A stretch of 64,000 nt of DNA from assembly GCA_900552125.1 (NCBI GenBank), contig URYK01000002.1:62001-126000 (forward strand), given 5' to 3'. The DNA comes from an uncultured Solobacterium sp. (GTDB lineage: Bacteria; Bacillota_I; Bacilli_A; Erysipelotrichales; Erysipelotrichaceae). Position 1 is the first letter of the stretch. Each line of letters opens with the position of its first letter. This document shows, one piece after another, positions 1,284-17,269 of this stretch. The notes beneath the pieces are model-generated. The model had not been told where the DNA came from. It saw only the letters and a list, made by a program, of their open reading frames with translations, and searched no databases. The translations under genes and the position numbers were made by a program.

Positions 1284-1292
1284 AAAATATTT

Positions 1293-1476
1293 CCTCCTTG
1301 CGGTTCCACCGCTATTCTCTGTAAGATTTCTATATCTTACGCTTTTATCAGCTCACAACTGAACGTTTGTCAAAGGCGAACCTAGTGAGTTCATATTACC
1401 TTTGACAAGAAAGTTAAGGTGTGATAAGTCAGAATAAAGAAATAAATTGTACTTTCATATAGTTCTATAAAAAGCC
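1293..1476 (-). promoter_or_regulatory. Structured leader RNA, copy 1
   Basis: Read on the minus strand: a conserved upstream block with CTTTTTATA (about 1440-1476); an outer stem TTATCA (1422-1427) with TGATAA (1345-1350) plus a variable paired segment; an inner stem TTGTCAAAGG (1399-1408) with CCTTTGACAA (1367-1376); and a GAAC/GTTC hairpin inside it around the conserved ACTCACT loop. Two further hairpins follow, GTAAGAT/ATCTTAC (1321-1340) and GCGG/CCGC (1300-1312), the last touching the AAGGAGG site. Three similar copies occur at 2544-2722, 3516-3674 and 13810-13925. A cis-acting regulatory RNA is inferred. Confidence 0.6.
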
Positions 1477-1486
1477 ATTATCCTAC

Positions 1487-1509
1487 AAAAAGAGCAGCGT
1501 TTGCTGCTC
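1487..1509 (-). terminator. Rho-independent terminator after the 99-aa gene
   Basis: GAGCAGC/GCTGCTC arms at 1492-1498 and 1503-1509 with a 4-base loop, followed on the minus strand by five T's. It ends transcription of the 1523-2115 genes just before leader copy 1 begins. Confidence 0.8.
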
Positions 1510-1522
1510 AATATATCTTGCT

Positions 1523-1822
1523 CTATCTCATATCTAAGAACATTTTTATGTAGTCTAGGTCATATTCTTCAAGATAATAATCTATGTTTTCTTCTAATTC
1601 TTCATCTAAATAATTTTTCATATCCTTATTTATTTCTAATTCTTTAAAATCATGACAATAGTCTAAAATGAATTCCAAAACTTCCATTCTTTGATTTTTG
1701 ATTTCTTCTATAAACTTTACTGAATGTTTTTCTTTATTAATTATGATTACTGTTTCCTTATCCTCAATAATTAATATTTCATTATCTTCTTTAGTAAAGA
1801 GTCTTGCAATTACTTGTATCAT
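1523..1822 (-). CDS. Hypothetical acidic protein, 99 aa
   Basis: Unrecognised protein; the N-terminal third looks like beta strands (LIIEDKETVIIIN) and the C-terminal half is very acidic (EELEENIDYYLEEYDLDY). ATG at 1822 has GGAGG 7 bases upstream and lies next to the stop of the preceding gene, so the two are probably co-transcribed and end at the terminator at 1487-1509. Confidence 0.65.
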   Translation of the reverse strand: MIQVIARLFTKEDNEILIIEDKETVIIINKEKHSVKFIEEIKNQRMEVLEFILDYCHDFKELEINKDMKNYLDEELEENIDYYLEEYDLDYIKMFLDMR

Positions 1823-1824
1823 GA

Positions 1825-2115
1825 TTATGCCTCCATTATGATTTTTTCATTCTTTGTTTTTCTTTTTAAATCTTTCTCCTTTAGTAATTTATCGTTTCTC
1901 ACTATTTCCTTATTTATTTCATCTTTGGTTATTTCTTCTTCTATATATGCTCTAAGTGTTGTTTCGTGTCCATGCATTACAACGTCTAAATAATATCTGT
2001 ATAGATCATCAAGAGAATAGTTTTCTAGTATTATACCCACATCATGATAGATACCATGATGAGTCCTCATTCTACTGGTCAGATCTTTTTGTATCTTCAT
2101 ATTAATATTTTCCAT
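1825..2115 (-). CDS. Hypothetical protein, 96 aa
   Basis: Unrecognised, predicted helical, with a lysine/glutamate-rich C-terminal tail. The ATG has AAGGAT 7 bases upstream. It sits 16 bases after the DUF4314 gene and 2 bases before the 99-aa gene, so the three probably form one transcript driven from leader copy 2. Confidence 0.65.
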   Translation of the reverse strand: MENINMKIQKDLTSRMRTHHGIYHDVGIILENYSLDDLYRYYLDVVMHGHETTLRAYIEEEITKDEINKEIVRNDKLLKEKDLKRKTKNEKIIMEA

Positions 2116-2131
2116 TTCTGTTATCCTTCCT

Positions 2132-2536
2132 TTATTTTTTTCTGATTATATGACCGCCATCAATATTAGACTTCCAATGATGATAGTTTCCTTGTTCATC
2201 TCGGAATTCAATGTCATGGATTTCTTCTTTTAAGAAAATGTAAGAGTCTTGTGTTAAAATAGTTGCTACCTTAATTTTCTGACCGTTACATATGATTACA
2301 TCATCAACCTTGATATCTTCTGCTATTACTTCAAAGATATCTTCATCAACCACCAATCCTAGTGAAGAACCATTTTCCCATGCCATATGTATTGTTCCTG
2401 CATCATCGACATTTCTAACTGAGCCTATTGTTCCGCTCGGAACAGGATTATATTTATCTTTCATCAGCACACACTTAATTCTCGTACCTTTCGGATATTT
2501 TTTTCTTAACTCATTTACTATTTCATTTTGTTTCAT
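2132..2536 (-). CDS. DUF4314 domain protein, 134 aa
   Basis: Residues 14-70 match the DUF4314 pattern as I know it: PKGTRIKCVLMKDKY, PSGTIGSV, DDAGTIHMAWENGSSLGL. This small beta-barrel-like domain is common in ICEs and phages of Firmicutes; its biochemical role is unknown. The C-terminal half (residues 75-134) resembles no family I can name. The ATG at 2536 follows AAGGAGG (2544-2550), which directly abuts the last hairpin of leader copy 2. Confidence 0.85.
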   Translation of the reverse strand: MKQNEIVNELRKKYPKGTRIKCVLMKDKYNPVPSGTIGSVRNVDDAGTIHMAWENGSSLGLVVDEDIFEVIAEDIKVDDVIICNGQKIKVATILTQDSYIFLKEEIHDIEFRDEQGNYHHWKSNIDGGHIIRKK

Positions 2537-2543
2537 TCTATTT

Positions 2544-2722
2544 CCTCCTTGCGGTTCTACCGCTATCCTCTGTAAGATTTATTAATCTTACACTTTTACC
2601 AGCTCATGATCGAACGTCTGTCAAAGGCGAACGCAGTGAGTTCATATCACCTTTGACAGGATAGTGAGAGCATGATAATGTTCAAATAAGAAAAATAATA
2701 TCTTTCGGTCATATAAAAAGCC
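2544..2722 (-). promoter_or_regulatory. Structured leader RNA, copy 2
   Basis: Same architecture as copy 1. Outer stem TTATCA-GCTC (about 2668-2678) pairs with GAGC-TGGTAA (2596-2605), including a G-U pair; inner stem CTGTCAAAGG (2650-2659) pairs with CCTTTGACAG (2618-2627). Its closing C-G replaces the T-A of copy 1, a compensatory change. Hairpins GTAAGAT/ATCTTAC (2572-2591) and GCGG/CCGC (2551-2563) follow, the latter touching AAGGAGG. The upstream CTTTTTATA block is at 2690-2722. Confidence 0.6.
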
Positions 2723-2731
2723 ATATAGTAA

Positions 2732-2819
2732 ATCGCAGTATTTTTACTGCGATCACGCAAATAAAAAAAGTGGCAATATTGCCACATAACAAGGCTGTTA
2801 ACTTTATGACAGCCTTGTT
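2732..2819 (-). terminator. Three tandem hairpins with a T-tract behind the PemK-like gene
   Basis: In minus-strand order: AACAAGGCTGT/ACAGCCTTGTT (2788-2798 with 2809-2819), a perfect 16-base palindrome GTGGCAATATTGCCAC (2770-2785) followed by seven T's, and ATCGCAGTA/TACTGCGAT (2732-2740 with 2745-2753). The middle one is a classic intrinsic terminator; the outer two may reinforce it or protect RNA ends. Confidence 0.75.
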
Positions 2820-2828
2820 GATTGTATA

Positions 2829-3344
2829 TTATAGTATAATATTGATTACAGCAAGTTTGATTGCTGAGAAAAGATTGCTATGTACCGAAATATGACCTTT
2901 TACATCTATAACTCTAGCAGGGTTTATAAATTTTATGTCATTTAGGAATAAGACACTGTCTTTTTTCATTGCTCCTGCTTTAGGAAAACTAAATAGATGA
3001 CTTTTGCCATTTGGGTTCTTTTCAGATCTAGCTTTGCTTATAGCTTTTGCATTGCTTGTCATTGGAACGACCAATATCTTTCCTCTGCAAATTGAAATCA
3101 CTAAACCGAAATGCTGATATCCTATTTCATGCTGATAAGCTTTTCCAAAGTCAATGTAACATATATCTCCTATATTTATTCTTACTCCTGTTTCATCATT
3201 GCTGGTCATATGTTTCCTCTGATGATAATTTATTTCTGAAACATAGAGATTATTAAATTCCTTTTGATTGCATTTTTTTAATTCATTTAAATTTAATGTC
3301 ATGAATTCTTCAATCATTTCATCATATACCTTGCTTTCCATCAT
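2829..3344 (-). CDS. PemK/MazF-like toxin-family protein, 171 aa
   Basis: Residues 55-171 show the PemK/MazF barrel pattern: GDICYIDFGKAYQHEIG, QHFGLVIS, KILVVPMTSN, and a late LNDIKFINPARV segment. Family members are mostly endoribonucleases that cut mRNA. A helical N-terminal extension of about 50 residues precedes the barrel. The usual RPALVIS segment reads QHFGLVIS here, so the active site may differ. ATG at 3344 overlaps the stop of the 56-aa gene (ATGA), so they are translationally coupled; that small partner does not look like a standard antitoxin. Activity is inferred from family only. Confidence 0.75.
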   Translation of the reverse strand: MMESKVYDEMIEEFMTLNLNELKKCNQKEFNNLYVSEINYHQRKHMTSNDETGVRINIGDICYIDFGKAYQHEIGYQHFGLVISICRGKILVVPMTSNAKAISKARSEKNPNGKSHLFSFPKAGAMKKDSVLFLNDIKFINPARVIDVKGHISVHSNLFSAIKLAVINIIL

Positions 3345-3511
3345 AATGCTACTACAGTTCCTTTCGTTTTACCATTGACCTTTCCGGTGCGAAGTCTGCT
3401 CACCCTGCAATAAAAGCTTTCTATTGTAAGTCCTAAATATTCAGCACATTCTTTAGCGGTTCCTATCATTAGTAAATTTTCGTGTTTGTCATAAACAGCA
3501 TATTCTTTCAT
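3341..3511 (-). CDS. Small HTH-like protein, 56 aa
   Basis: Short protein of a type common in Firmicutes phages and ICEs (AVYDKHENLLMIGTAKECA then EYLGLTIESFYCRVSR), probably a small helix-turn-helix DNA binder. The start is ATG at 3511 with AGGAGG just upstream; a longer TTG-started frame would place the Shine-Dalgarno inside the coding region. It is first behind leader copy 3 and overlaps the PemK-like gene by 4 bases, so it might act as its regulator or antitoxin. Confidence 0.65.
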   Translation of the reverse strand: MKEYAVYDKHENLLMIGTAKECAEYLGLTIESFYCRVSRLRTGKVNGKTKGTVVAL

Positions 3512-3515
3512 TGTA

Positions 3516-3674
3516 TTCCTCCTCAACAAGTATAAGTAAGTTACCTTACACCTTTATCAGCTCATACTTGAACGATTGTCAAAGGCGAACAAAGTGAGTA
3601 CCATTTACCTTTGATAAGAAAGAGAAAGTATGATAAGTTTTATAAAATAAATAATCTTTCCAGTTGCATAAAAA
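3516..3674 (-). promoter_or_regulatory. Structured leader RNA, copy 3
   Basis: Outer stem TTATCATACTT (3626-3636) pairs with AAGTATG...TGATAA (3554-3569); the inner stem TTATCAAAGG (3608-3617) pairs with CCTTTGACAA (3576-3585) with one A-C mismatch. The 5-base hairpin GTAAG/CTTAC (3536-3549) is kept, while the GCGG/CCGC hairpin is missing. The ATTTTTATG...GAAAGATTATT block (3645-3674) matches the upstream block of copies 1 and 2. It precedes the 56-aa gene and the PemK-like gene. Confidence 0.55.
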
Positions 3675-3689
3675 TATTTTGAAAAAAGA

Positions 3690-3869
3690 TTATAAAATAT
3701 GATTACCCTTATCATCGGAAATCGATAAATCTAACAACAAACACAAGTGCATTTCATCAAAATTTGTTTTACTATTGTGATGTATCAGTATTTCATTTAT
3801 ATTTACATTATGCACAGAAAAAAACAGGTCTGCTTTACTTAAAACGCATCCCTGTCCTTTTATTTTCAT
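3690..3869 (-). CDS. Possible small protein, 59 aa
   Basis: Open frame from ATG at 3869 to TAA at 3690 with coding-like composition (VHNVNINEILIHHNSK). No good Shine-Dalgarno is visible, and an inverted repeat TTTCATGA/TCATGAAA straddles the start. An ACAGG...CCTGT hairpin with seven T's (about 3825-3857) lies inside the frame and could instead be a terminator for transcripts from the 4-kb region. Coding status uncertain. Confidence 0.3.
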   Translation of the reverse strand: MKIKGQGCVLSKADLFFSVHNVNINEILIHHNSKTNFDEMHLCLLLDLSISDDKGNHIL

Positions 3870-4157
3870 GAGCTATTTCAAATATTACAGTTCATGAAAG
3901 TATTATAACGTATTTGTACACAAACTATTACGATCTCCTATCTTATGAATAGAATGGAAATCATTTAGAATTATCTTTCAATATGAAAAATCTTTTAATA
4001 CTCTATCAGTCAACGTATCACATGTATAGAATGATAGAGTGAAATAAAACAAATTTCAAATACCAAAATTTATCTTTCATCATATTCATTTCTCCAAGAA
4101 TAAAATCATAAAAGTTATTACCTGAAAAAGAAGGACAAATATAAGATTGCTGCTTTT
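3870..4157. other. AT-rich stretch without a convincing gene
   Basis: Very AT-rich, with several imperfect inverted repeats, including ACTCTATC/GATAGAGT (about 4000-4041) and TTTCATGA/TCATGAAA near 3865-3899. No open frame with a ribosome-binding site, tRNA or clear terminator was found. It separates the leader-controlled genes from the secreted-peptide island and may hold promoters or a small RNA. Confidence 0.4.
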
Positions 4158-4397
4158 TTATTTAAGTGGAACTATCCATGAAAAAATTTCTATGAGTAAA
4201 TTCAGAATATAAGGAAATTTAGATTTAGATATTTTTTCATGGTTTTTTGCTACACATGCTATTTGTTCTTTATTAAACCCTTCCTTTAAAAGATCTTTTA
4301 ATTCTTCATCACTAAGATAGTTTTTGATTAATTTGTCTTGTTCTTCCTCGGTCAATGGTAGTTTGTTTTGAGAAACTTTCTTTTTATTTCTGAACAT
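4158..4397 (-). CDS. Small protein, possible immunity partner, 79 aa
   Basis: Charged helical protein (LPLTEEEQDKLIKNYLSDEE) ending in a hydrophobic/amphipathic tail (PYILNLLIEIFSWIVPLK) that could attach to the membrane. The ATG at 4397 lies 9 bases after the stop of the secreted 171-aa gene; with no clear Shine-Dalgarno, translational coupling is likely. Position and size fit an immunity protein for that peptide, but this is inference; no family is recognised. A longer upstream start (4454) would overlap the preceding gene and is less likely. Confidence 0.5.
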   Translation of the reverse strand: MFRNKKKVSQNKLPLTEEEQDKLIKNYLSDEELKDLLKEGFNKEQIACVAKNHEKISKSKFPYILNLLIEIFSWIVPLK

Positions 4398-4405
4398 ATT
4401 TTTTA

Positions 4406-4921
4406 CTAAACTGAGTATTTGCAAACATAAGTTGTAGCGGAAGTTGGAACACATTCATTGCCATTAGAAAGTTTCACTGATTTCAATTTTTGGTTTTCAG
4501 CATAGGCATCAGTCATATTACTAAAACGGTTATAAGCATGTTTAAGTTGGTTTCTTAATTCGGCTCTTATATTATAGCCATCTGCTGCCATAATTACTCC
4601 ACCTGCGGCCATCCAACCTGCGACATATGGAAAACCATCAATAAAAAACCAAATAACAACAGACCAAACTATTTTTCCATCTACGTATAATTTACCATCA
4701 ATTACTTCAACTTTTTGTCCTTCATAAGGAGTATTCATCAATTCTTTTTCAGAAAATGTATAATCTGCTTTTTTAAGTTGTTCTTTTTGTTCTTGACTAT
4801 ATTCCTCTGTTTCTACTACGTATTCTTCTGGAACTTCTTTAGCATTAACAAATTGATTTGCTCCTCCTGTGACCCCTAAAAAAAGACTTAATGTTACAAC
4901 TATAGTTATTAATTTTTTCAT
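4406..4921 (-). CDS. Secreted peptide precursor with hydrophobic hairpin, 171 aa
   Basis: Sec signal peptide (residues 1-27, KK then a hydrophobic core, probable cleavage after VNA), an acidic region containing ETEEYSQEQKEQ, then a long hydrophobic stretch (about 86-118, including VVIWFFIDGFPYVAGWMAAG), and two cysteines near the C-terminus (NECV and YVCKY) that may form a disulfide. The start of the mature region resembles that of the secreted protein at 7274-7945 (AK-[ED], then ET..EYS.E), suggesting related precursors. It is divergent from the BlaI/BlaR-like pair. Bacteriocin-like toxin is the leading guess; no named family was recognised. Confidence 0.6.
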   Translation of the reverse strand: MKKLITIVVTLSLFLGVTGGANQFVNAKEVPEEYVVETEEYSQEQKEQLKKADYTFSEKELMNTPYEGQKVEVIDGKLYVDGKIVWSVVIWFFIDGFPYVAGWMAAGGVIMAADGYNIRAELRNQLKHAYNRFSNMTDAYAENQKLKSVKLSNGNECVPTSATTYVCKYSV

Positions 4922-5133
4922 AATATTTTACCTCTCTTTCTAACTATAATACATTACGTTTAATTTTGTACCTCATATTATTCGGCTTTTTAAACTTCCA
5001 TTGTTATCACCGTCCCCTTTTTCTAATCAAAACTACTACTTTTACCTAAAGTATATAACGTTTATAAAAAATTACAAGCGATTTTTTTAAAAATATCTAT
5101 TTTTTTTTGACATGGCTTTTATTTTTTTATATT

Positions 5134-5153
5134 TGTACTATAATTATTGTACA
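5134..5153. promoter_or_regulatory. Candidate BlaI-type operator
   Basis: A 20-base near-perfect palindrome, TGTACTATAATTATTGTACA (18 of 20 positions symmetric), sits 11 bases before the ATG of the BlaI-like gene and contains TATAAT. TGTAC/GTACA half-sites resemble the TACA/TGTA half-sites of BlaI/MecI operators. A TTGACA lies at 5107-5112. Autorepression of the regulatory pair is inferred. Confidence 0.6.
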
Positions 5154-5164
5154 GAGGTGATTAT

Positions 5165-5533
5165 ATGATATTTTCAAAACTGACAAAAAGAGAAAATGAA
5201 ATTATGGAAATTCTTTGGAATAATGATAAAGAAATGTCTGCAACTGACATTATGAATGCATCCAATGGAATTAGCTTAAACACTATTCAACAAACTCTAC
5301 AGAAACTATTAAAAATGAATTACATATATGTTTCTAGTGTTGGAATGAACAAAAAAGCACTAACACGACTTTATCGACCATCAATTGAAGAAGTTGATTA
5401 CATATCTGCATTCATAAACGAATCTACTTACGCTAAACTCGCATCAAGTTTTATTACACAAACCAAAGATGATAAAATATTAGAGGAACTTAGCCAATTA
5501 ATTGAAGAGAAAAGAAAAAGTTTGAAAGGATAA
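5165..5533 (+). CDS. BlaI/MecI-family transcriptional repressor
   Basis: 122 aa. The N-terminal winged helix shows the family pattern LTKRENEIMEILWNNDKEMS, ATDIMNA, LNTIQQTLQKLLKMNYI. In BlaI/MecI this domain binds operator DNA as a dimer and is released when the partner metalloprotease is activated. The C-terminal part (KLASSFITQTKDDKI) fits the dimerisation helices. ATG at 5165 has GAGGTG 6 bases upstream; the longer TTG frame would start inside the operator. The M56 protease gene follows 4 bases after the stop. Confidence 0.85.
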   Translation: MIFSKLTKRENEIMEILWNNDKEMSATDIMNASNGISLNTIQQTLQKLLKMNYIYVSSVGMNKKALTRLYRPSIEEVDYISAFINESTYAKLASSFITQTKDDKILEELSQLIEEKRKSLKG

Positions 5534-5537
5534 CACT

Positions 5538-6653
5538 ATGTCAATCACTTCTTCTTCAATCTTTATTACTATTTGTATTTCCTCTTTGCTAATTATAGCT
5601 TTAAATTATTTTATCTCTAAAACAAATAAATTTAAGATATTTAGAACTGATTTTTTTACTTTTCTAATAGTGATAATTATTTTAAAACTTATGTTTCCAA
5701 TCGAACTGTTTTTTACGAAAACTATTCCAGCAAGCACTATAATGAACCCTATCTTTTCGTTATTAAATTATGAACTTATTACAGGTGTAACTGTCCAACA
5801 AATTATTTTATTAATTTGGTTGTGTGGAATTATTGTATTTGGAAAAAAGTTTGTTCAACAAATAATTGTATCGTATAGAATTGCCAATAGAATACATAAA
5901 AAATCATCATGCTATAAAGCAAGTGAGTTACTCAGTAATTATGAAGGAAAAGATTATTTGATTATGATTTCAGATTTAGTGTCTTCTCCTATGGTGTTTG
6001 GTCTTAATAAAATTATATTTTTGCCAAATATTAAATTTTCTCAAATTGATTTAAATAATATAGTATTACATGAAATACAGCATATAAAAAATCATGATGT
6101 ATTTATTAAACTTTTTTTAAATATAATTGTGATTATATACTGGTGGTTTCCTCCTATATATTTATTACAAAAAAATATGAGCTTATTTCTAGAAATAAGA
6201 GTAGATGATCAAGTGACGAAAACTATGTCTTCAGATTCTAGATTTAATTATGCAGAATCATTGATCAGCGTACAAAAAGCAATTAGAAATACAAATTCAA
6301 ATTATAAAGAATTAGTATTCAGTTCTTTTATAAATGATTCAGCAGAAATTCTCTCATATAGAGTTAATTATCTTTTGGATGGAAATTTCATAAAGAAAAC
6401 AAATTCGATATTTCTAGCATTGTTATGTATTCTTCCGTTTTTATCAAATATGATAATATTGGAACCTGCATTTTATAATACTGAAATAATAGAGGGAACG
6501 CTGACAAATGATGAACTTAAAAAAGGATATATAACAGCACATAGCGATGGAACATATAGTCTGACAATTAATGGAGAAACTGTAGAAATAGGGAAAAGAA
6601 TCCCAAATGATTTAATTGACTTACCAGTTATAGATGAAAATGAAAGGAAGTAA
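5538..6653 (+). CDS. BlaR1/MecR1-like M56 metallopeptidase without penicillin-binding sensor
   Basis: 371 aa with several N-terminal membrane segments, then the zinc-protease motif in VLHEIQHIKNHD (HExxH) at about residues 178-189 and another membrane segment near 285-310. In BlaR1/MecR1 signal sensing leads to protease activation and removal of BlaI/MecI. Here only about 60 residues follow the last membrane segment, far too few for the roughly 250-residue beta-lactam-binding domain, so the signal must be something else. The short tail contains a GTYSLTINGETVEIGK strand-like motif. It is followed 4 bases later by a secreted-peptide gene. Confidence 0.8.
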   Translation: MSITSSSIFITICISSLLIIALNYFISKTNKFKIFRTDFFTFLIVIIILKLMFPIELFFTKTIPASTIMNPIFSLLNYELITGVTVQQIILLIWLCGIIVFGKKFVQQIIVSYRIANRIHKKSSCYKASELLSNYEGKDYLIMISDLVSSPMVFGLNKIIFLPNIKFSQIDLNNIVLHEIQHIKNHDVFIKLFLNIIVIIYWWFPPIYLLQKNMSLFLEIRVDDQVTKTMSSDSRFNYAESLISVQKAIRNTNSNYKELVFSSFINDSAEILSYRVNYLLDGNFIKKTNSIFLALLCILPFLSNMIILEPAFYNTEIIEGTLTNDELKKGYITAHSDGTYSLTINGETVEIGKRIPNDLIDLPVIDENERK

Positions 6654-6657
6654 TTTT

Positions 6658-6888
6658 ATGAAAAAGAAATGTATTATTATAATTCTTATTATCACAGCTC
6701 TAATGCCTTATTCTAACATAAACGCTACAGAGAAATATGCTGTAGATAATAATGCCAAAGAAGATATTGAAGCGTATGCTGATATTAAAGAATGGCGCTA
6801 CAAAATAATGGATGGTTACTTATATAAACGTTTATATAATGTATCTAAAGGAAAATGGGAAGGACCTTGGATCAAAGTATATGAATAA
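6658..6888 (+). CDS. Small secreted peptide, 76 aa
   Basis: Signal peptide (MKKKCIIIILIITALMP, probable cleavage after NINA) and a mature part of about 53 residues rich in aromatic and basic residues (KEWRYKIMDGYLYKRLYNVS, then KWEGPWIKVYE). ATG at 6658 has AAGGAAG 8 bases upstream; it is the third gene of the BlaI-BlaR-like operon. It may be the ligand, a modulator of the M56 sensor, or an antimicrobial peptide. No family recognised. Confidence 0.65.
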   Translation: MKKKCIIIILIITALMPYSNINATEKYAVDNNAKEDIEAYADIKEWRYKIMDGYLYKRLYNVSKGKWEGPWIKVYE

Positions 6889-7021
6889 ATTCTTTTAATA
6901 ATAGTATAAAAGCAGGAGCTAATAAGGTCACTTGAAGATATAAAATATCTTTTAGAAACAGCTTTGACAATAATCGTAAAAAAAGTATTTCTTTTTGCAA
7001 GTACATAAGAAGTTATTAAAG

Positions 7022-7048
7022 AAAGCCGGAGAATAATCTCACGGCTTT
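7022..7048. terminator. Bidirectional terminator between convergent genes
   Basis: AAAGCCG-GAG / CTC-A-CGGCTTT hairpin with a T-run on the plus strand and A's on the other side. It can end the plus-strand regulatory operon and the minus-strand secreted-protein operon. Confidence 0.75.
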
Positions 7049-7049
7049 T

Positions 7050-7298
7050 TTATATTATGTTTATGATGACAAATAATATTATAATTGTTAACCAAAAAAT
7101 GGCTGATATCAATTTTGATTTTCCAGATTCTTTATCCTTTATATACATATAAATATTAACTAATGAATTTAACACTAATATTGGAATTAAAGCATGTGAA
7201 TAAAACTTCAAATATTTTCCAAAAAACAAAGCCACTATAAGTGTTGCTGAAACAAGAATTTCAGTTATAGTATTTAAGGTTTTTGTGTATCGAACCAT
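7050..7298 (-). CDS. Small membrane protein, possible immunity protein, 82 aa
   Basis: Three predicted membrane segments (about residues 10-27, 33-50 and 62-82) separated by a short charged loop (KDKESGKSK). Its ATG at 7298 lies inside the last codons of the secreted 223-aa gene (25-base overlap), so translation is coupled. Small multi-span proteins encoded right after a secreted toxin are typical bacteriocin immunity proteins; that role is inferred from layout only. Confidence 0.6.
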   Translation of the reverse strand: MVRYTKTLNTITEILVSATLIVALFFGKYLKFYSHALIPILVLNSLVNIYMYIKDKESGKSKLISAIFWLTIIILFVIINII

Positions 7299-7945
7299 GA
7301 ACCATTACCATATGAATAAGTAGAATATTTATTCTTATATCCAATTCTTACAGCTAGTTTTCTATTAAGGTTTCTAGCTTTATGAGTAGTAAAATTATTT
7401 TCTTGTGAATATTCAAAGTAACCATTCACACTTACGCCAGGAAAAAATGCATTAAGTAGTGAACCGTCTCCACCATACTTAAAGAACTTTGATAATCCTG
7501 CAGACAATGCAGCTTTTCCAACCCCTGCTACTGCTGCAGCAGAAACAAATGAACTAACTGCCAAAATTGAACCTATAATTGCACCAACACTTTCAGGATT
7601 TACATCGAATTTTGTTCTAAATGGTCCTGCAATAAAATTTCCTCTGGTTGACAAATCAATAGTAGTATATCCTCTACCAATATAATTGCCATGCTCATCA
7701 TGTAACATTTGTGTTGCTTTATCATAAATAGCCGTATATACTTCACCTGTTTCTGAATTTTCAGTAATTACAGTTCTTGTAGAATCATTTTCAGTAATTT
7801 TAAAGGTAAGTTCTTCTATTTTTAATATTGTTTCTTCTGAATATTCTTGTGTAGTTTCTGAAATATCTTTAGCATTAATTGTAGAGACGTTCACTAACCC
7901 TAAAGACATAGCGAATGTTATAATTACTATTAAAATTTTTTTCAT
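7274..7945 (-). CDS. Secreted protein with glycine/alanine-rich hydrophobic segment, 223 aa
   Basis: Signal peptide (MKKILIVIITFAMSLG, cleavage probably after TINA), an acidic region with ETTQEYSEET resembling the other secreted precursor, a conserved-looking middle (ATQMLHDEHGNYIGRGY), a hydrophobic small-residue segment at about 131-165 (VGAIIGSILAVSSFVSAAAV), and an aromatic C-terminus ending YGNGSWFDTQKP. ATG at 7945 has AAGGTG 6 bases upstream; an earlier TTG lacks one. It could be a pore-forming secreted toxin paired with the overlapping membrane gene. Not assigned to any known family. Confidence 0.6.
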   Translation of the reverse strand: MKKILIVIITFAMSLGLVNVSTINAKDISETTQEYSEETILKIEELTFKITENDSTRTVITENSETGEVYTAIYDKATQMLHDEHGNYIGRGYTTIDLSTRGNFIAGPFRTKFDVNPESVGAIIGSILAVSSFVSAAAVAGVGKAALSAGLSKFFKYGGDGSLLNAFFPGVSVNGYFEYSQENNFTTHKARNLNRKLAVRIGYKNKYSTYSYGNGSWFDTQKP

Positions 7946-8072
7946 AAAATACACCTTCTTTCTTTTTTCTAAAAACAAACATATGTTCCCATCTTCTCAC
8001 CGCTCTCTTTTTTTCTACTAAAATTTTATATTTTATATCTCAATTAAACAAGACTATTATTTTTTGTTTAAA

Positions 8073-8089
8073 TGTTATATAATATAACA
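8073..8089. promoter_or_regulatory. Perfect 17-base palindrome upstream of the secreted-protein gene
   Basis: TGTTATAT-A-ATATAACA, perfectly symmetric around one base, in the gap between the 271-aa membrane gene and the secreted gene that starts at 7945. It may be an operator; it differs from the TGTAC/GTACA site at 5134. Confidence 0.4.
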
Positions 8090-8148
8090 GTAGTTAAAAA
8101 AAATATAAGATATTTAAAATTAAAATCATTATATTAAATAAAGCATCA

Positions 8149-8964
8149 TCAATTTGCTATCTTTTCTGTAATTTTTGATACCTTATATTTAACATAGAAT
8201 AATATTCCACACAGAATGCTATATATAATGCATGTATATGATAGGATGATATTATTCCATATATAGGCAGTATCATAATCTTCCTTGTATTTTTGATAAT
8301 TTTCATCAATAATTTCTTCTTTTGATTTACAATGTTCTGTCGTTGGTTTATCATCTAAAAACAATAATTGATATGAGACCATTTCGGCATTTTTATTATT
8401 AGGAAATTTAAGTGTTTCTTTTATAGTTTTTACCTGATATTCTGTTGCTTCTTCTATCTTCTTATCAGTGTTATATATTCCACAAGCATTCTGCGAAGAA
8501 TAGAAATTATATTTATGCGTCATTCCATTTTCTGTAGAAACTGTAGCGTATTTCACCTTATCTTCTTTGATATATTCTTCAACGGGTTCATATGTTATAA
8601 TTTCTGTCTCTTTTTTATATTCCCTATAAGTCATTATGTCTGTTGAATATATATTCCAGCATAACAAAACAATGATGAAAATGAAAATTTTAATTGCTTT
8701 TGATAACGATACGTGATAGTCAAGATGCCATTCTTCATCAAATTTAAATACTGTCTCGCTAAAGATGAAGAACAGCATATAAACGCTTGCTACGATTGAA
8801 GATAATAAGCTTAAGGTTTGATTAATTGGAATTTCTTCGTTACCAAGTAAATCATGCAAATATAGAAGTAATATAATAATTCCAATGAAGTATAGTATTG
8901 AGGTTATAATTGATAAACCGTGCCCCCAATCATCTAAGAATTCTTTTAATTTCTTTTCTTTCAT
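8149..8964 (-). CDS. Four-span membrane protein of unknown function, 271 aa
   Basis: Two membrane segments in the first 75 residues, one near 90-107 and a last one near 235-257. A loop of about 120 residues between the third and fourth carries two cysteines (NACGIYN and EHCKSKEE) and many charged residues. No motif recognised. It has ATG with GAAAGAAAGGTAGG just upstream and lies 2 bases from the stop of the next gene upstream, so it belongs to the element's minus-strand operon rather than clearly to the secreted-peptide island. Confidence 0.65.
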   Translation of the reverse strand: MKEKKLKEFLDDWGHGLSIITSILYFIGIIILLLYLHDLLGNEEIPINQTLSLLSSIVASVYMLFFIFSETVFKFDEEWHLDYHVSLSKAIKIFIFIIVLLCWNIYSTDIMTYREYKKETEIITYEPVEEYIKEDKVKYATVSTENGMTHKYNFYSSQNACGIYNTDKKIEEATEYQVKTIKETLKFPNNKNAEMVSYQLLFLDDKPTTEHCKSKEEIIDENYQKYKEDYDTAYIWNNIILSYTCIIYSILCGILFYVKYKVSKITEKIAN

Positions 8965-8966
8965 TT

Positions 8967-9326
8967 TTACCTACCTTTCTTTCCACTTCTCTTATAGCTG
9001 TACCAAATCATTTCTAGACATTTCATGATATTTTCTCTTTTTTTCCGAGCTTTGTCGTACATTTCCAGCACTTTAAAGCGCTCCTCAAATGGGAAGTCTG
9101 TTATGTTTGTCTTTAGTATATTATTTTCTATCTGCTTATCCTTTTCAGTTAGCTTCCTTTGTATCCTTTTTCGAACTAAATCCTGACAGAAAGGATAATT
9201 ATCTAGCTCAAGTGCAAACATGACGATTTCCAAAAGATCATCCTTCGAAAATATCCTGCTTAAAAGTTTTTTGAGTTCATCTTCTTTATTTTTCTTTATA
9301 TATCCTCCAGTGATTAATTTAATCAA
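8967..9326 (-). CDS. Hypothetical helical protein, 119 aa
   Basis: Helical, lysine-rich protein (DELKKLLSRIFSKDDLLEIV; KRIQRKLTEKDKQIENN) with no recognised family. The start is uncertain: the frame opens with TTG at 9326, while a GGAGG at 9304-9308 lies inside the frame with no ATG at proper spacing. It sits between a small acidic gene and the four-span membrane gene. Confidence 0.55.
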   Translation of the reverse strand: MIKLITGGYIKKNKEDELKKLLSRIFSKDDLLEIVMFALELDNYPFCQDLVRKRIQRKLTEKDKQIENNILKTNITDFPFEERFKVLEMYDKARKKRENIMKCLEMIWYSYKRSGKKGR

Positions 9327-9335
9327 CTTGATACA

Positions 9336-9596
9336 TTATTCTTCTTTCTCTTTAATTTTTATATCAATCTCATCCTTAGTCCCCATTTTTAGCTGAATGT
9401 ATTCCTTTACTATCTCATCAATCGTATCCATTACATTGATTTCAATCTTCTCTCCATCATAATCCGCAGTTGCTTTCATTTCTTCCATCCAGTCTGTTGC
9501 TGTATGAAGACAACCGATTGCTACGATTGCTTTTCTTGCTTTTAGCAAGTTATCTTTGCTTATCTGTAAATCCTTACTTAGATTTTCTTGTGTCAT
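9336..9596 (-). CDS. Hypothetical protein, 86 aa
   Basis: Helical N-terminal half and acidic/lysine-rich C-terminus. ATG at 9596 is preferred because AGGAAA lies 6-7 bases upstream; an ATG five codons earlier (9611) has no Shine-Dalgarno. No family recognised. Confidence 0.6.
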   Translation of the reverse strand: MTQENLSKDLQISKDNLLKARKAIVAIGCLHTATDWMEEMKATADYDGEKIEINVMDTIDEIVKEYIQLKMGTKDEIDIKIKEKEE

Positions 9597-9620
9597 ATTT
9601 ATTTCCTGCATTTCTAAAGA

Positions 9621-9935
9621 TCAAATGTCAAATTCGATTTGGTTGATCTGGACGGAAATGAAAAGATTTGAAATCACCCATGTTGCAAATATTGCTAGAA
9701 ATCTCAATGGATTCGCTTCTCCGCCAGTATCCTTTATATATGATAACGTTATGGTAATGAATACAAGATAGAAAATATAAACTGTAAAACGTGATAATTT
9801 TTCAAAGGATCCACTATATTGTTTAGATTTAACTTTCATACAAAGCTTTACGAGTAAAAAAATACCTAGTACCATCATTGCATTAAATCCTACAAATTCA
9901 TATATTGAAATTAAGAGTTGGTAGGTTATTGACAA
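9621..9935 (-). CDS. Small membrane protein, up to 104 aa
   Basis: Three hydrophobic segments (about 20-33, 50-65 and 78-97) separated by basic and polar loops (KVKSKQYSGSFEK; KDTGGEANP). The frame opens with TTG at 9935 overlapping the preceding gene; an internal ATG at 9878 with AGGA upstream is an equally good start (85 aa). It forms a pair with the next membrane gene. Function unknown. Confidence 0.55.
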   Translation of the reverse strand: MSITYQLLISIYEFVGFNAMMVLGIFLLVKLCMKVKSKQYSGSFEKLSRFTVYIFYLVFITITLSYIKDTGGEANPLRFLAIFATWVISNLFISVQINQIEFDI

Positions 9936-10140
9936 TCACATAATGAACAGGAAAGAAAAAAATAGCTAAAAATAAAATTAAAGTCGTAGAAAGAAACTTA
10001 TCATTCCCATAGTGACTTGTAGAAACGATACTATTTATAAATAAAAAACTATAAACCAATAACGTTAGATATCCTATCAATTTCATTAAAGCAAATCCTA
10101 TTTGAGATACGTATAAAATCATTTCAGACATATATGACAT
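9898..10140 (-). CDS. Small membrane protein, 80 aa
   Basis: Two strong hydrophobic segments (about 12-38 and 48-70) and little else. ATG at 10140 has AGGAGG with fitting spacing. Two consecutive small multi-span proteins in an element of this kind could belong to a conjugation or exclusion module, but nothing in the sequence proves it. Confidence 0.6.
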   Translation of the reverse strand: MSYMSEMILYVSQIGFALMKLIGYLTLLVYSFLFINSIVSTSHYGNDKFLSTTLILFLAIFFFPVHYVIVNNLPTLNFNI

Positions 10141-10204
10141 ATATCATCTTCCTCCTTTTTATGTCCTTTACTTTCACAAATGAAAGTAGAAAAATTCTTT
10201 TGCA

Positions 10205-10438
10205 TCATAGCGCTTCGATAATAATAGTTTTTGTTATTTCCCTGCGGGTAGGAGAGGGGCAATCTTCACATATGAAATCATCTATCTTCTTGATCACTCT
10301 GACCTTTAAGCCTGCCTCTTTTTCACAGAATTCTTTTATTACTTTTCTTCCATATTTCCTGTAGCATTCTCCCGATATGACCGTATTTCCATATGTTTTC
10401 AGCGCCAATAATTGCTGCTTTGAAAAAATCTCTTCCAT
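10205..10438 (-). CDS. Small cysteine-containing protein, 77 aa
   Basis: Contains four cysteines, SGECYRK and KEFCEKE in the middle and ICEDC near residue 60. They could bind a metal, but the spacing matches no zinc finger I know. ATG at 10438 lies 3 bases from the stop of the YopX-like gene, so the two are co-transcribed. Confidence 0.55.
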   Translation of the reverse strand: MEEIFSKQQLLALKTYGNTVISGECYRKYGRKVIKEFCEKEAGLKVRVIKKIDDFICEDCPSPTRREITKTIIIEAL

Positions 10439-10441
10439 ACA

Positions 10442-10777
10442 TTATTCTCCTGTTTCTAATGTATTTCCTATGCAGATATATGACCCAATCTCTACATGAA
10501 GAGATATAATTTTCTCATTATCAAGTATGGTCTTATTTCCCTTTTCATTCATCACGATATCCTGCTCATATAATGGAACACCGTTTCTATCACATTGAAT
10601 GTACTGCTGCATGACCATGTAGCGTTTGGTTGCTGCTGGAACAGCTTCTATCAGATATCTCTTATCATCCAGGTTTACGTATTCCTGAAGCTCATATAGT
10701 TCTCCATCCGTTCCGATAAGAAATTCGTCATAGTGCATCTTTTGTTCTTTTTTATCCCATACTCTAAACCCCTTCAT
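10442..10777 (-). CDS. YopX-family protein, 111 aa
   Basis: N-terminal FRVWDKKEQKMHYDEF and the later GVPLYEQDIVM match the YopX family known from phage SPBeta and many ICEs and phages of Firmicutes. The family forms a beta-rich fold of unknown role. The ATG has GGAGG 10 bases upstream inside the end of the resolvase-tail gene, giving a 14-base overlap. Confidence 0.8.
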   Translation of the reverse strand: MKGFRVWDKKEQKMHYDEFLIGTDGELYELQEYVNLDDKRYLIEAVPAATKRYMVMQQYIQCDRNGVPLYEQDIVMNEKGNKTILDNEKIISLHVEIGSYICIGNTLETGE

Positions 10778-11126
10778 TAGTTCTTATCCTCCCTTCAATC
10801 TTTAGATCCTCTTTGTACCACTTTAAGAATGTAGTCTGCGAAACTTTAAGCATAGCTGCCGCTTCCCGTGTGCTTAATTCTGCATTTAGATATTTTTCTG
10901 CAATTTCTTTATATCCATCTGGTCTTTTCAGGACAGGTCTCCCAAATTTGATTCCCCGCTCTTTTGCATCCATTATTCCTTTTTTCTGCTTTGATTTCCG
11001 TTCTCTTTCAGATTGTTCGATATATCTTTGTGCTACCTTGATTAGGCTCAAAAAGAAATTTTTTCTTAAAGAATTTAAGCTTCTATAAAAGTCGATCAGA
11101 TATTTTTCACTTTCATCTAATTCCAT
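10764..11126 (-). CDS. Resolvase C-terminal tail protein (no catalytic domain), 120 aa
   Basis: Residues 50-107 match the part of serine recombinases that follows the catalytic domain: KQKKGIMDAKERGIKFGRP, then an HTH with LSTREAAAMLKVSQTTFLKWY. The catalytic N-terminal domain (with its serine) is missing, and residues 1-40 are unrelated helix. The gene has its own start and GAGGG ribosome-binding site, so it looks like a free-standing DNA-binding derivative of a resolvase rather than a recent wreck. It overlaps the YopX-like gene. Confidence 0.75.
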   Translation of the reverse strand: MELDESEKYLIDFYRSLNSLRKNFFLSLIKVAQRYIEQSERERKSKQKKGIMDAKERGIKFGRPVLKRPDGYKEIAEKYLNAELSTREAAAMLKVSQTTFLKWYKEDLKIEGRIRTNEGV

Positions 11127-11275
11127 ATATATCCCTCTTTCTTTTTTTATTAGAACTCCTTCCCTCGTGGTAGACTGCCATAGTTTTTAATAGATATGGA
11201 GGAAAGGGAAGTATGAATCAGTTTATTCAATTATGACAATCTACCATGAAGGAAGAAATCCCTCTTAAACTTAAC

Positions 11276-11497
11276 TTACTTGGTTTTGGAATTCATGCCG
11301 AGCTTATAGGCACAGATGCATAAAAGCATACCTGCTATGCATAAACAGCTGATGCTTACAAGATTGAATTCTCCCTGCAATATAGCTATCATGACTAGTT
11401 CCAGAATTCCTGCCACATAAAGCACGAATGTATTATGGATCAGTTCTTCTTCTGAATGTGGTATAAGACTTGCTTTAAAATATCTATTCTTTTTCAT
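11276..11497 (-). CDS. Small two-span membrane protein, 73 aa
   Basis: Two hydrophobic segments (about 23-42 and 45-66) flanked by basic residues (KKNRYFK; KLGMNSKTK). Its GGGAGG ribosome-binding site directly follows a GCGG/CCGC hairpin identical in design to that of leader copies 1 and 2. Function unknown. Confidence 0.6.
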   Translation of the reverse strand: MKKNRYFKASLIPHSEEELIHNTFVLYVAGILELVMIAILQGEFNLVSISCLCIAGMLLCICAYKLGMNSKTK

Positions 11498-11503
11498 TTT
11501 TTT

Positions 11504-11524
11504 CCTCCCTGCGGTTTATCCCGC
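11504..11524 (-). promoter_or_regulatory. Stand-alone GCGG/CCGC hairpin next to ribosome-binding site
   Basis: GCGG (11521-11524 on the coding strand) pairs with CCGC (11511-11514) across a 6-base loop, and GGGAGG follows at once. The flank GAGGATAGCGG also matches leader copy 2, but the rest of the leader is absent here. It probably tunes access of ribosomes to the 73-aa gene and overlaps the end of the 28-aa gene. Confidence 0.5.
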
Positions 11525-11610
11525 TATCCTCGTTTTTTCCCGAATAAATAACTGATGAATGCTGCCATGTTGATAAGTAAGAAGATGGCTATTTTTCTCA
11601 TATCATCCAT
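11524..11610 (-). CDS. 28-aa membrane micropeptide
   Basis: ATG at 11610, TAG at 11524; the peptide has a charged N-terminus (MDDMRK), one hydrophobic segment (IAIFLLINMAAFISYLF) and a basic end (GKKRG). GAGGG lies 8 bases upstream of the ATG. Its stop overlaps the hairpin that precedes the 73-aa membrane gene, suggesting coupled expression. Size and topology are those of small regulatory or helper membrane peptides. Confidence 0.55.
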   Translation of the reverse strand: MDDMRKIAIFLLINMAAFISYLFGKKRG

Positions 11611-11647
11611 TTTAAGTCCCTCTATCTGACTTCTAGACTGACAGTTC

Positions 11648-12415
11648 CTACAATTCCTTAATTCTGCCTTTTTTATCAGCTAAAATAACACTTATATTTA
11701 AGCTGTTTTTTACCGTTCTAGGAATTTCATTCCACTGTCTGCGATATACGATTGAATCATTGAAAGCGATACTGTAATGAACGGAAGCATCATCCATATG
11801 TTTTAATAATTCAATCAATTGTGCTGACAATGCCTCTGTTTTTCCTCTCTTCACTCCCTGTACATTTATCACCCAATGCCTATTCTCATTGCTTGCTACG
11901 ATAAAATCTTCATCTTCAGTTGTTTTCCAGCCATGTTCTTCTAACCATTTTTTTACCAGCTCTCGCAATTCCTCTGTATTTTTCTTCTTTTTTGCTTTTT
12001 TAGCTGCAAGTTTTTCTTCTTTGCTCTTTGCTGGACGACCTCTTTTTTTATCAGGGAACATTCTTTCTCTTTCTTCTAATTTTTCTAGATAAAACCGTAC
12101 TGTTAAATATGAGCCAAATCCTGTATTGCCTTTTGGTCTACTCAAGATTTCATCACCATCCAGCATTTGTTTATAGATTGCCTGACAGCATGTTGGCATC
12201 CTGTTGTAATTTGGACTGACGATTGCATGAAGTTCTTTTGCGTTTACCTCAATAAACTTTTTCCCTTCGTTATGTGCTTCGTTCTTCATAGCTTCAATAA
12301 CACTACAAAAATCTTTAATTCCTGGAGCTTTCATCAAATCACTCTCCTTTGCAAAATCAGTTAATCTATCATCCTTCGATAAGATCCTTGCGACCGATGT
12401 CATATTCAATTCCAT
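11648..12415 (-). CDS. AT-hook-containing protein, about 255 aa
   Basis: Helical N-terminal part, then a lysine/glutamate-rich linker with an AT-hook-like [13 protein letters not shown] followed by an alanine/lysine run (residues about 125-150), then a C-terminal domain of about 100 residues ([37 protein letters not shown]). Probably DNA-associated. ATG at 12415 has GGGAG upstream; a start at 12445 lacks one. It overlaps the end of the DUF2786 gene by 47 bases. No family name assigned. Confidence 0.65.
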
Positions 12416-13043
12416 GCTTTTCTCCCAATGTAAAGGCATTGACATCCGAAACGCTAAGCTCTCTTTTCCTTACATGGACATTTTCTTTAAACCATTCTTT
12501 TACAGGAGTAGGTACCCCTATAACTGCAAGTTCATATTTTTCCTCCAGTTTCATATCAAGCAGAAGCTGATCAAGCTGTTTTTTTAGTCCTTTAGCAAAA
12601 CCTGCCAGATAATCCCGCTTATATATCCTGAAATCGCTATTACCGATATAGCATTGCTTAAGATCGTTCAGGACTTCTGAAAGATAATAGATCAGTCCTT
12701 CCGCCACAGGAACACATATTTCTACATCTTCTTTTAGTCCGATGATGCTGAACAAAACATCGTTGCGGTTTACCTTTCCTTCAAATGCAGATCTGCACTG
12801 AAAATTTTCTGCCAGGACCTGTAATGCCCATTGGATATAGCCGCAGCCTTTATGTTCCAGAGTCTTATAGATGACCTCTTCGCATTTAGCATGTTCGAAT
12901 AGTTCAGCTTCTTCAATCTTATATTTGACCCTCAGCTTATTGGCGCGATACACTGCAAGCTGTATCTCCTGATCTGATGCTGTACTGTCACTGGAGATTG
13001 CCATCAGCTTCTGAATCTTTCTGATCACATCTTCTTTTTTCAT
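12369..13043 (-). CDS. DUF2786-domain protein, 224 aa
   Basis: Residues 3-45 ([19 protein letters not shown], then [12 protein letters not shown]) match the start of DUF2786 proteins, a family common in phages and mobile elements. The rest ([16 protein letters not shown], then [10 protein letters not shown]) matches the companion C-terminal region. Biochemical role unknown; a nucleic-acid-related role is only a guess. ATG at 13043 overlaps the stop of the upstream 43-aa gene as ATGA. Confidence 0.8.
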
Positions 13044-13171
13044 ATCTCATCCTCCTCATAACCTGCTAATTCATCTGCCTGACCTCCTGCTTTGCACGCT
13101 ACAATAACGACAACACAGATAAGAATCACAGTTATCATAAGAGTCATTGCTATGCTAACGATTACCATCAT
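13040..13171 (-). CDS. 43-aa single-span membrane peptide
   Basis: ATG at 13171 with AAGGTG 6-7 bases upstream, TGA overlapping the ATG of the DUF2786 gene (ATGA). It has one hydrophobic segment ([20 protein letters not shown]) followed by an acidic tail ([12 protein letters not shown]). The precise four-base coupling to the next gene makes it very likely to be real. Function unknown. Confidence 0.6.
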
Positions 13172-13400
13172 TTTTATTCACCTTACTCTTTACCTTTTCT
13201 TCAATTGCTTTCATATCATGGTATGGAAAGCTAAGATCAATCAACTCCTCTTCCAACTGTGCTACATAATCACCATACATAGATGGATTTTTGATATATT
13301 TCTTAAGAGCCGATCTGTAGATCTTCATTATCTCTGCATGAGAATGTACTGTCTTTCCTCCAAAGGTTAATCCGTTTTCCGGGACTCTTATCCTTTTCAT
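13155..13400 (-). CDS. Hypothetical protein, 81 aa
   Basis: Small basic N-terminus (MKRIRVPENGLTFGGKTVHS) and a helical remainder. ATG at 13400 has AGGAGG nearby. It overlaps the 43-aa gene by 17 bases in the same operon. No family recognised. Confidence 0.6.
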   Translation of the reverse strand: MKRIRVPENGLTFGGKTVHSHAEIMKIYRSALKKYIKNPSMYGDYVAQLEEELIDLSFPYHDMKAIEEKVKSKVNKNDGNR

Positions 13401-13411
13401 AAAATTCCTCC

Positions 13412-13618
13412 TTATTTGATATGCTCTATATCAGCATTTGGGTGATTCAGAAGATATTCATCTATGTCGCATAAGTTAGCATTCCAGATGATATGCTTAT
13501 CTGAATGTATCATTTCAGCCAGCTTTTCCTTGGAACAGACAGCCTTTCTTATTATCAAAGAACCGAAGCTATTGCGTTCCTGTTTTCTGCTGTATTCGAT
13601 GTTATATCCCATGTACAT
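13412..13618 (-). CDS. Hypothetical protein, 68 aa
   Basis: Small protein (GYNIEYSRKQERNSFGSLII...) with excellent initiation signals: AGGAGGTG 7 bases before ATG 13618. One cysteine-containing segment near the C-terminus (NANLCDIDEYLL). Part of the minus-strand operon after leader copy 4. Function unknown. Confidence 0.6.
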   Translation of the reverse strand: MYMGYNIEYSRKQERNSFGSLIIRKAVCSKEKLAEMIHSDKHIIWNANLCDIDEYLLNHPNADIEHIK

Positions 13619-13624
13619 TCAAAT

Positions 13625-13804
13625 TCACCTCCTGTAATTCAGCTTAGCTAAGGCTTTTCTGTATTCTTTTGCCTTATTTGACCATTCGCTAAATTTCTTA
13701 AAATCTTCATTTGTCTGGATTCCCCATGCTAGATCATCCATATTCTTTTCACATGTTTTTAATTTCTCATATAGCTCTTTTTGTTTGGATTCTTTTTTCA
13801 TCAT
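13625..13804 (-). CDS. Hypothetical helical protein, 59 aa
   Basis: Lysine-rich, entirely helical (KELYEKLKTCEKNMDDLAWG). The first gene behind leader copy 4. GGAGG lies 5 bases before ATG 13804; a second ATG follows immediately. Function unknown. Confidence 0.6.
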   Translation of the reverse strand: MMKKESKQKELYEKLKTCEKNMDDLAWGIQTNEDFKKFSEWSNKAKEYRKALAKLNYRR

Positions 13805-13809
13805 CAATT

Positions 13810-13925
13810 CCTCCAGTCATTATCTTTGTCAGCTTACACTTTTATTGGCTCATTCGGGAACGATTGTCAAAGGCGAATGAAATGAGTGCAGTTTACCTTT
13901 GACAAATAGAGAGCGAATGATACGG
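13810..13925 (-). promoter_or_regulatory. Structured leader RNA, copy 4
   Basis: Outer stem ATCATTCG (about 13914-13921) pairs with CGAATGAG (13849-13856); inner stem TTGTCAAAGG (13896-13905) pairs with CCTTTGACAA (13864-13873), with the conserved ACTCAT and TTCGCC residues inside. The variable outer-stem bases differ from those of copies 1-3 yet still pair. The downstream GTAAG hairpin is degenerate and the GCGG hairpin absent. It precedes the 59-aa gene by a few bases. Confidence 0.55.
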
Positions 13926-14031: not shown

Positions 14032-14063
14032 ACAAAATTTTTTAAAATAGAGGATATAAAGAT

Positions 14064-17173: not shown

Positions 17174-17192
17174 AAATGTATATTTAATTCGA

Positions 17193-17269
<77 letters not shown>

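Follow-up and report, generated by a model that had tools for sequence, protein, structure and literature searches.

This report concerns a repeated element in 64,000 nucleotides (nt) of DNA from an uncultured Solobacterium sp. (contig URYK01000002.1, positions 62,001 to 126,000), the whole of which is referred to here as the window. Our analysis confirmed that its four copies are a real folded, covarying, multi-copy element lying before genes of one mobile element. These copies belong to a wider family of bulged hairpins on mobile DNA, which is apparently undescribed. Family-wide evidence leans moderately toward folding of the complementary strand, the template for the downstream gene, and our leading, if tentative, reading is a functional fold in single-stranded DNA, acting like a single-strand initiation (ssi) site and/or as a single-strand promoter.

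Four covarying copies and their shared anatomy

Coordinates refer to the whole window, and all four copies are on the minus strand (Table 1). A covariance model made from the four copies (R1) was searched against the window and recovered them at 103–113 bits, so that the four occurrences described by an earlier, sequence-only reading, each before a different gene, were borne out. The other R1 matches, at E values up to 5, were three reverse complements of the copies (15–18 bits), and a scan with a relaxed descriptor returned exactly the same four copies. The outer stem (P1) had been said to vary in sequence while staying paired, and it does: 4 of its 7 pairs change on both sides, and 89% of its cells are paired, with the unpaired cells falling within two pairs (C.T in copies 1 and 2, and C.C in copy 4). 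Across the whole structure, 94% of cells are paired, compared with 27–49% in slid controls. Five pairs change on both sides, against a mean of 1.8 in 500 shuffles, five of which matched the observed five, and the covariation score of 0.295 was equalled by none of the 500. Single-sequence RNA folding surpassed shuffles for copy 1 (z −4.8), copy 2 (z −3.6), and copy 3 (z −2.6; 2 of 200 shuffles as good), and was no better than shuffles for copy 4 (z −0.7; 51 of 200 as good).

The family is recognized by a stem and by a TRAWNNGNAC bulge that faces no bases on the opposite side; an apical hairpin usually stacks on the stem as well. P1 is mostly long and free in sequence. The inner stem (P2) keeps TGTCAA/TTGACA in conjugative-element copies, apart from one A.C pair in copy 3, and only about CAAGG/CCTTG in viral copies. 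The bulge sits between P2 and the apical hairpin (P3), and the G that pairs with its final C is stacked on P2. The window copies retain the bulge and this closing C-G pair and have lost P3 in that register. Several features that looked fixed from the window alone proved to be so only in part. The TTGTCAAAGG stem, reported as conserved, is kept in the window save for the A.C pair of copy 3 and varies in relatives, where the constant part is the bulge with its closing pair. The ACTCACT loop holds in copies 1–3 and becomes ACTCATT in copy 4. The GTAAG/CTTAC and GCGG/CCGC hairpins are present in copies 1–3 and 1–2, respectively, as described, and are local additions rather than family traits. Small hairpins by the ribosome-binding site do recur among relatives.

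Some further details were noted around the core. An unpaired tail of the GAYARAAAGTG type recurs between P1 and the ribosome-binding site in conjugative-element copies. Most copies of the relatives L160, L163, and L164 carry an extra GGTGGC/GCCACC hairpin and TATGGAA-like repeats just upstream, so the full leader there may be ~200 nt. A pseudoknot between the loop CACU and a downstream AGUG, judged by eye, does not hold in copy 1 or in relatives, and attC-, dif-, and oriT-like readings were considered and not favoured.

Relatives on conjugative elements, plasmids, and viral records

Further homologues with compensatory changes, which the sequence-only reading had proposed to look for, were found in the same order, in presumed Clostridia, on plasmids, and in viral records. 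The order sample consisted of 315 genomes, presumably of Erysipelotrichales, 10 of which contain relatives of the replication-type protein of the window's element. Scanning the 315 genomes with R1 gave one decayed copy in one genome (G051, 50.7 bits). Weak R1 matches adjoin relatives of the replication gene, and reading of the flanks located two copies each in G127, G128, G131, and G185. The intact element is thus present in relatives of the window's conjugative element in 4 of 315 genomes, with the decayed copy in a fifth. In the subfamily alignment (A5), seven pairs, including two of the apical stem, are altered on both sides. The pattern TGTCAAN{2,3}TRAWNNGNACN{4,28}TTGACA had 14 matches in 10 of the 315 genomes (reversed control, 2), and the whole structure was seen in eight of the 14 (4 genomes), one further match being the decayed G051 copy. 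In 296 genomes drawn from the class, the TGTCAA..TRAWNNGNAC..TTGACA pattern matched four, two of them already known, and the matches in the two new genomes do not fold as the element. Loci L301 and L302 were rejected for a fold unlike that of the element. Weak matches were L176 (G225, 25 bits) and L300 (G284), which has a good P2 with weak P1 and P3.

All 13 conjugative-element copies seen (four in the window, L169, and two each in L160, L163, L164, and L170) precede a start codon with ribosome-binding-site-like sequence in the same orientation; in L169 that gene is decayed, and for the second L163 copy the reading frame is presumed. The G127 carrier encodes a MobL relaxase and an AAA/TraG-type ATPase, that of G185 a relaxase and a NikA/MobC-like protein, and ParB-type proteins occur in both. 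In G185, the genes behind the copies head toward those for the NikA-like protein and the relaxase, and a PD-(D/E)XK nuclease gene lies in between. The replication-type protein had no relatives in viral contigs, and BLAST of plasmids and phages with the window copies found nothing.

In a class sample of 391 genomes, presumed Clostridia, the TGTCAA..TRAWNNGNAC..TTGACA pattern gave 18 matches in 17 genomes and none in the control columns printed. Nine of the 18 have the structure (L303, L304, L305, L311, L312, L313, L315, L319, and L320), and nine were set aside as being without family-type P1, P3, or P2 extension (L306–L310, L314, and L316–L318). L311 was kept with just 8 nt upstream, from which P1 cannot be judged. 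L306, L307, and L308 lie upstream of a lexA-looking helix-turn-helix gene of ~208 amino acids with GAACATTTGTTC boxes and are chance matches. Five of the nine members adjoin transposase-family genes: L303, L304, and L320 are one sequence within a 1.33-kb insertion sequence (IS), a transposase gene of the rve/HTH_21 kind precedes L305, and the final part of a UPF0236 gene, which we take to be of the ISLre2 type, overlaps L312. A gene of the Mutator type (IS256-like) likewise precedes L215, on a viral contig. Among the transposase-linked copies, L215, L303, and L305 lie on the 3′ side of the gene.

In viral contigs, the TGTCAA..TTGACA pattern matched 99 stretches, near a rough by-hand estimate of chance, and among these the whole structure was present in L184 and its relative L254, L215, and L248. 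Loci such as L271 and L250 resemble divergent promoters and were put aside. The pattern CAAGGNTRAANTGNACN{4,28}CCTTG matched 85 viral stretches with 67 distinct cores, and 19 of the 67 had a paired P2 extension and a P3 of at least 3 pairs, compared with a mean of 0.95 and a maximum of 5 in 2000 shuffles. An earlier pattern (TCAAAGGT..TTCGCCTTTGA), run on viral and genome contigs, was abandoned, as the spacing and flanks among the matches listed were those of chance only. A Zot match was found in 4 of the 20 viral records given, and this search also gave a match in 5 of 14 control genomes. When a 41-nt core was used for BLAST, it matched 478 plasmid records, mostly weakly, 218 of them covering >80% of the query. 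Plasmids of 2.4 kb matched at E 0.04, and the one opened carries mobV; a Thiothrix plasmid matched near repB at E 0.01 with P1 missing. Against phages, the core matched an Inoviridae record at E 7, with the fold present. The microvirus loci L333/L334 have fitting stems but a different bulge (AAGTAAAC) and an E of about 2, and were not counted as members. The last ~0.7 kb of L332 (OP617746.1, a Klebsiella T4-like phage record) closely resembles a 2.4-kb MobV plasmid, and the record is possibly chimeric.

Base-shuffled sequence (2.08 Mb) gave no matches to a strict descriptor, and unrelated real sequence (1.09 Mb) gave one. When P1 was scored against cross-paired arms, 32 of 41 members exceeded the 95% level; among the window copies only copy 1 did, because an internal loop sets off P1 in copies 2–4. 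Many carriers are conjugative, mobilizable, or inovirus-like, with the transposase-linked copies as the main exception and several viral contigs staying unclassified in this tally. In agreement with the sequence-only reading, which recognized no named class, no Rfam 15 family reached its cut-off at the element in the window (gathering threshold), in window positions 1000–4000, or in L160, L163, L170, L303, L305, L315, L319, L184, and L215. Literature searches by literal strings, motif name, and topic returned no description of this bulged hairpin family. The name and spread of the "Transposase-resistance" motif, listed as ambiguous and in "Several phyla" in a table row of Weinberg et al. 2010 (PMC2864571), recall the transposase-linked copies; the comparison is with that row rather than with a consensus.

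The folding strand and the action of the hairpin

We compared mismatch patterns, DNA folding energies, and gene orientation between the two strands. On the gene-sense strand, the non-Watson-Crick P1 pairs of 41 members comprise 20 G-T, 45 A-C, and 105 other. Isolated non-Watson-Crick outer-stem pairs in 40 members (a set that includes L333 and leaves out L311, L313, L316, L300, L416, and L371) number 5 G-T versus 26 A-C (two-sided binomial 2e-4; member sign-flip 0.004). Against a composition null of 199:333, taken from cross-paired arms, the one-sided value is 0.009, and 0.022 for unique events only. The group labels used in this test (conjugative, IS, and inovirus) were assigned by us, some by eye (L315 and L393). 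For DNA folding, 32 of the 40 members were used (without L169, L164a, L331, L333, L415, L377, L340, and L184b), and the complement is stabler in 23 and less stable in 7 (Wilcoxon 4e-4), compared with 42% for random 90-mers. In all five inovirus-like records, four of them with a Zot match (L248, L337, L344, and L348) and one so named by record taxonomy (L335), the element runs antisense to the prevailing coding direction, which places the complement on the gene-sense strand. In inoviruses, the gene-sense strand is the packaged strand. On these three patterns, the family-wide evidence leans moderately, with statistical support, toward the complement and toward single-stranded DNA. For the four window copies alone, the data are neutral.

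Many of the mobile elements that carry the family have a single-stranded stage in their cycle. Under the single-stranded DNA reading, the fold would form on the complement of the downstream gene, the template strand, which in a conjugative element would be the transferred strand. There, the hairpin would offer an entry point to a host or element enzyme, whose entry would prime complementary-strand synthesis, as at an ssi site, and/or allow early transcription of the adjacent gene, in the manner of the single-strand promoters of F and ColIb-P9. In line with this are the relaxase-bearing carriers (G127, with its MobL relaxase, and G185), the 2.4-kb plasmid with mobV, and the likeness of the gene after copy 3 to a host nuclease inhibitor. 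As judged from sequence matches, the content of the copy 3 operon (a nuclease inhibitor match and a PemK/MazF-like gene) fits an establishment regulon.

PMC11541004 and PMC8708921 describe single-strand promoters that drive establishment genes in F and ColIb-P9, and the latter raises the possibility that EGeRS1 does so in pLS20. Like Frpo/ssi of F and ColIb-P9, the present element consists of conjugative-element hairpins upstream of genes, in several copies, with the genes oriented toward relaxosome genes; it differs in being ~90 nt long with the bulge signature and no conserved −10. A −35 and −10 within the hairpin were not found: TTGACA is present in the window and its relatives but not in viral copies, and there is no −10. 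The G185 gene order would fit a template strand that is also the transferred strand. Neither descriptor nor patterns detected the element in F 45–68 kb or ColIb-P9 20–69 kb. ColIb-P9 has the order ardA, Rpn nuclease, nikA, nikB, with other genes between, and the G185 order is similar; in the F plasmid, ssb and psiB head toward traM. We take these ColIb-P9, F, and G185 regions to be leading regions. EGeRS1 of the pLS20 family (PMC8708921) is a repeated structure directly before the ribosome-binding site of several conjugative operons with no sigma-A promoter, as here, but is 420–750 bp and branched. In pLS20 40–60 kb, R1 had no match and R2 gave just a 10.8-bit fragment (E 1.8), and neither descriptor nor pattern found the element in pLS20 1–60 kb. 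With the complementary-strand origins (ssi and sso) of phages and rolling-circle plasmids, the element shares hairpins on single-stranded replicons, its carriers including inovirus-like records and a mobilizable plasmid; neither descriptor nor pattern matched pUB110, the sole rolling-circle sso plasmid scanned.

Several observations weigh against single-stranded DNA. Without the deviant microvirus L333, the mismatch count is 5 versus 23 (0.022 against composition), and without L333 and the near-duplicates L415 and L164a, it is 5 versus 19 (0.067); the conjugative group alone, at 1 versus 6, is not significant (0.06 to 0.20). The window copies fold equally well on both strands (differences of −0.1, −0.4, −0.5, and +0.5 kcal/mol). 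Of the remaining 13 viral records, 6 carry the element antisense and 7 carry it sense. Four of the inovirus-like records owe that label in part to their size and one-way gene order, because the Zot search also gives matches in controls. The weaker mismatch test and these Zot control matches lowered our confidence. In addition, the transposase-adjacent copies have no obvious single-stranded stage, TTGACA is lost in viral relatives, there is no conserved −10 box, and the place of all 13 conjugative copies ahead of a start codon is that expected of an mRNA leader. No relaxase was recognized in the window, and for every carrier we infer which strand is transferred. The pLS20 authors (PMC8708921) held single-strand promoters to be highly unlikely there, since it is the non-template strand that is transferred.

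The sequence-only reading had proposed a cis-regulatory RNA used across one mobile element. This proposal is partly supported: the structured cis element before genes stands, and action as RNA is one of two live options. The hairpin would be transcribed with its operon and would control it by binding a ligand, RNA polymerase (antitermination), or a protein of the element or host, which we regard as possible though doubtful. Besides the constant placement and orientation of the 13 conjugative copies, the window cores end 28–52 nt short of the start codon, terminator-like hairpins precede copies 1 and 2, and small hairpins recur by the ribosome-binding site. Precedents are the antitermination RNAs canT of Tn916 (PMC11658703) and conAn2 of pLS20 (PMC8955417), described as cis RNAs near the operon start of Gram-positive conjugative elements. 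In PMC11658703, the active canT pieces are 341–452 nt and one canT is mapped on Tn916, whereas here there are two to four short copies. Against the RNA reading, mismatches, DNA energies, and inovirus-like orientation favour the complement, weakly after cleaning in the case of the strand tests, and L215, L303, and L305 are 3′ of a transposase gene. Inovirus-like copies run antisense to genes, and no upstream promoter rose above shuffles in 12 copies (lowest upstream p 0.19).

A site in double-stranded DNA, whether an inverted repeat recognized by a regulator or by a recombinase, or a promoter used across the element with a TTGACA −35, is unlikely. Each of the four window copies does have TTGACA in its 3′ arm, and in copies 1 and 4 this box, with GATAAA or AATAAA 18 nt on, is the top promoter match downstream. 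These matches do not exceed shuffles, and no sigma-A promoter above shuffles was found around the 12 copies. The sigma-A version was rejected because L160, L163, and L170 have no −10 in the corresponding position and viral relatives lack TTGACA. Furthermore, outer-stem pairs vary yet mostly stay paired, which a duplex site would not need. Least probable is a selfish hairpin, or one spread passively to many mobile elements, either as a repeat akin to repetitive extragenic palindromes or MITEs or as part of an IS: near-identical copies do lie within the 1.33-kb IS in two genomes and others adjoin rve/HTH_21 (IS3-like), Mutator (IS256-like), and UPF0236 genes, but arm sequences differ among copies while remaining complementary, and conjugative-element copies keep a fixed place and orientation before genes.

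Genes around the copies and significance of the family

The features surrounding the four copies are collected in Table 1, in which the gene starts after copies 3 and 4 were taken as 3511 and 13804.

Table 1. Hairpin copies and neighbouring features in the window
Feature	Position	Strand	Details
Copy 1 core	1336..1428	−	P1 1417-1423/1354-1360; P2 1398-1408/1367-1377; bulge TAATATGAAC 1389-1398
Copy 2 core	2587..2679	−	Layout as copy 1; bulge TGATATGAAC
Copy 3 core	3545..3637	−	Bulge TAAATGGTAC; one broken P2 pair
Copy 4 core	13833..13924	−	Bulge TAAACTGCAC
GCGG/CCGC hairpin, copy 1	1300..1312	−	Abuts ribosome-binding site; counterpart at copy 2, 2551-2563
Terminator-like hairpin	1492..1509	−	Directly before copy 1
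Terminator-like hairpin	2770..2785	−	Directly before copy 2
Gene after copy 1	1074..1283	−	69 amino acids; no Pfam or PHROG match
Gene after copy 2	2132..2536	−	134 amino acids; DUF4314 (Pfam 1e-27)
Gene after copy 3	3341..3511	−	56 amino acids; PHROG 803 "host nuclease inhibitor" (1e-7)
PemK/MazF-like gene	2829-3344		Next in copy 3 operon
Gene after copy 4	13625..13804	−	~59 amino acids; no Pfam or PHROG match; heads a run of small genes
Replication-type protein	14559..16037	−	Relatives in [Clostridium] innocuum and Breznakia

A tblastn search with the G127 relative of the replication-type protein returned plasmid proteins, some annotated as replication proteins. A 14-pair inverted repeat (13998-14032), a terminator or operator, lies just upstream of copy 4, after a helix-turn-helix gene (14064-14369). 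Genes for tRNA-Ala and tRNA-Ile (17098-17269, minus strand) adjoin the replication-gene end of the mobile element, a possible integration site. A Cobalamin riboswitch (Rfam RF00174, 86.8 bits; 21210-21384, minus strand) lies outside it.

In its broadest form, the single-stranded DNA reading would make the TRAWNNGNAC-bulge hairpin an undescribed class and a shared landing site on DNA entering cells in single-stranded form, employed across several bacterial groups by filamentous phages and mobilizable plasmids as well as conjugative elements, with the window element starting each early operon from the transferred strand. We hold this to be rather unlikely as a whole. First expression and second-strand synthesis at the entry stage have been detailed for few plasmids, with little for Gram-positive elements, and a signature common to conjugative elements, small plasmids, and inovirus-like phages would provide a concrete, testable hairpin. 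If the proposal is true, this short signature would serve as a marker for establishment genes, likely with anti-defence roles, in unannotated elements.

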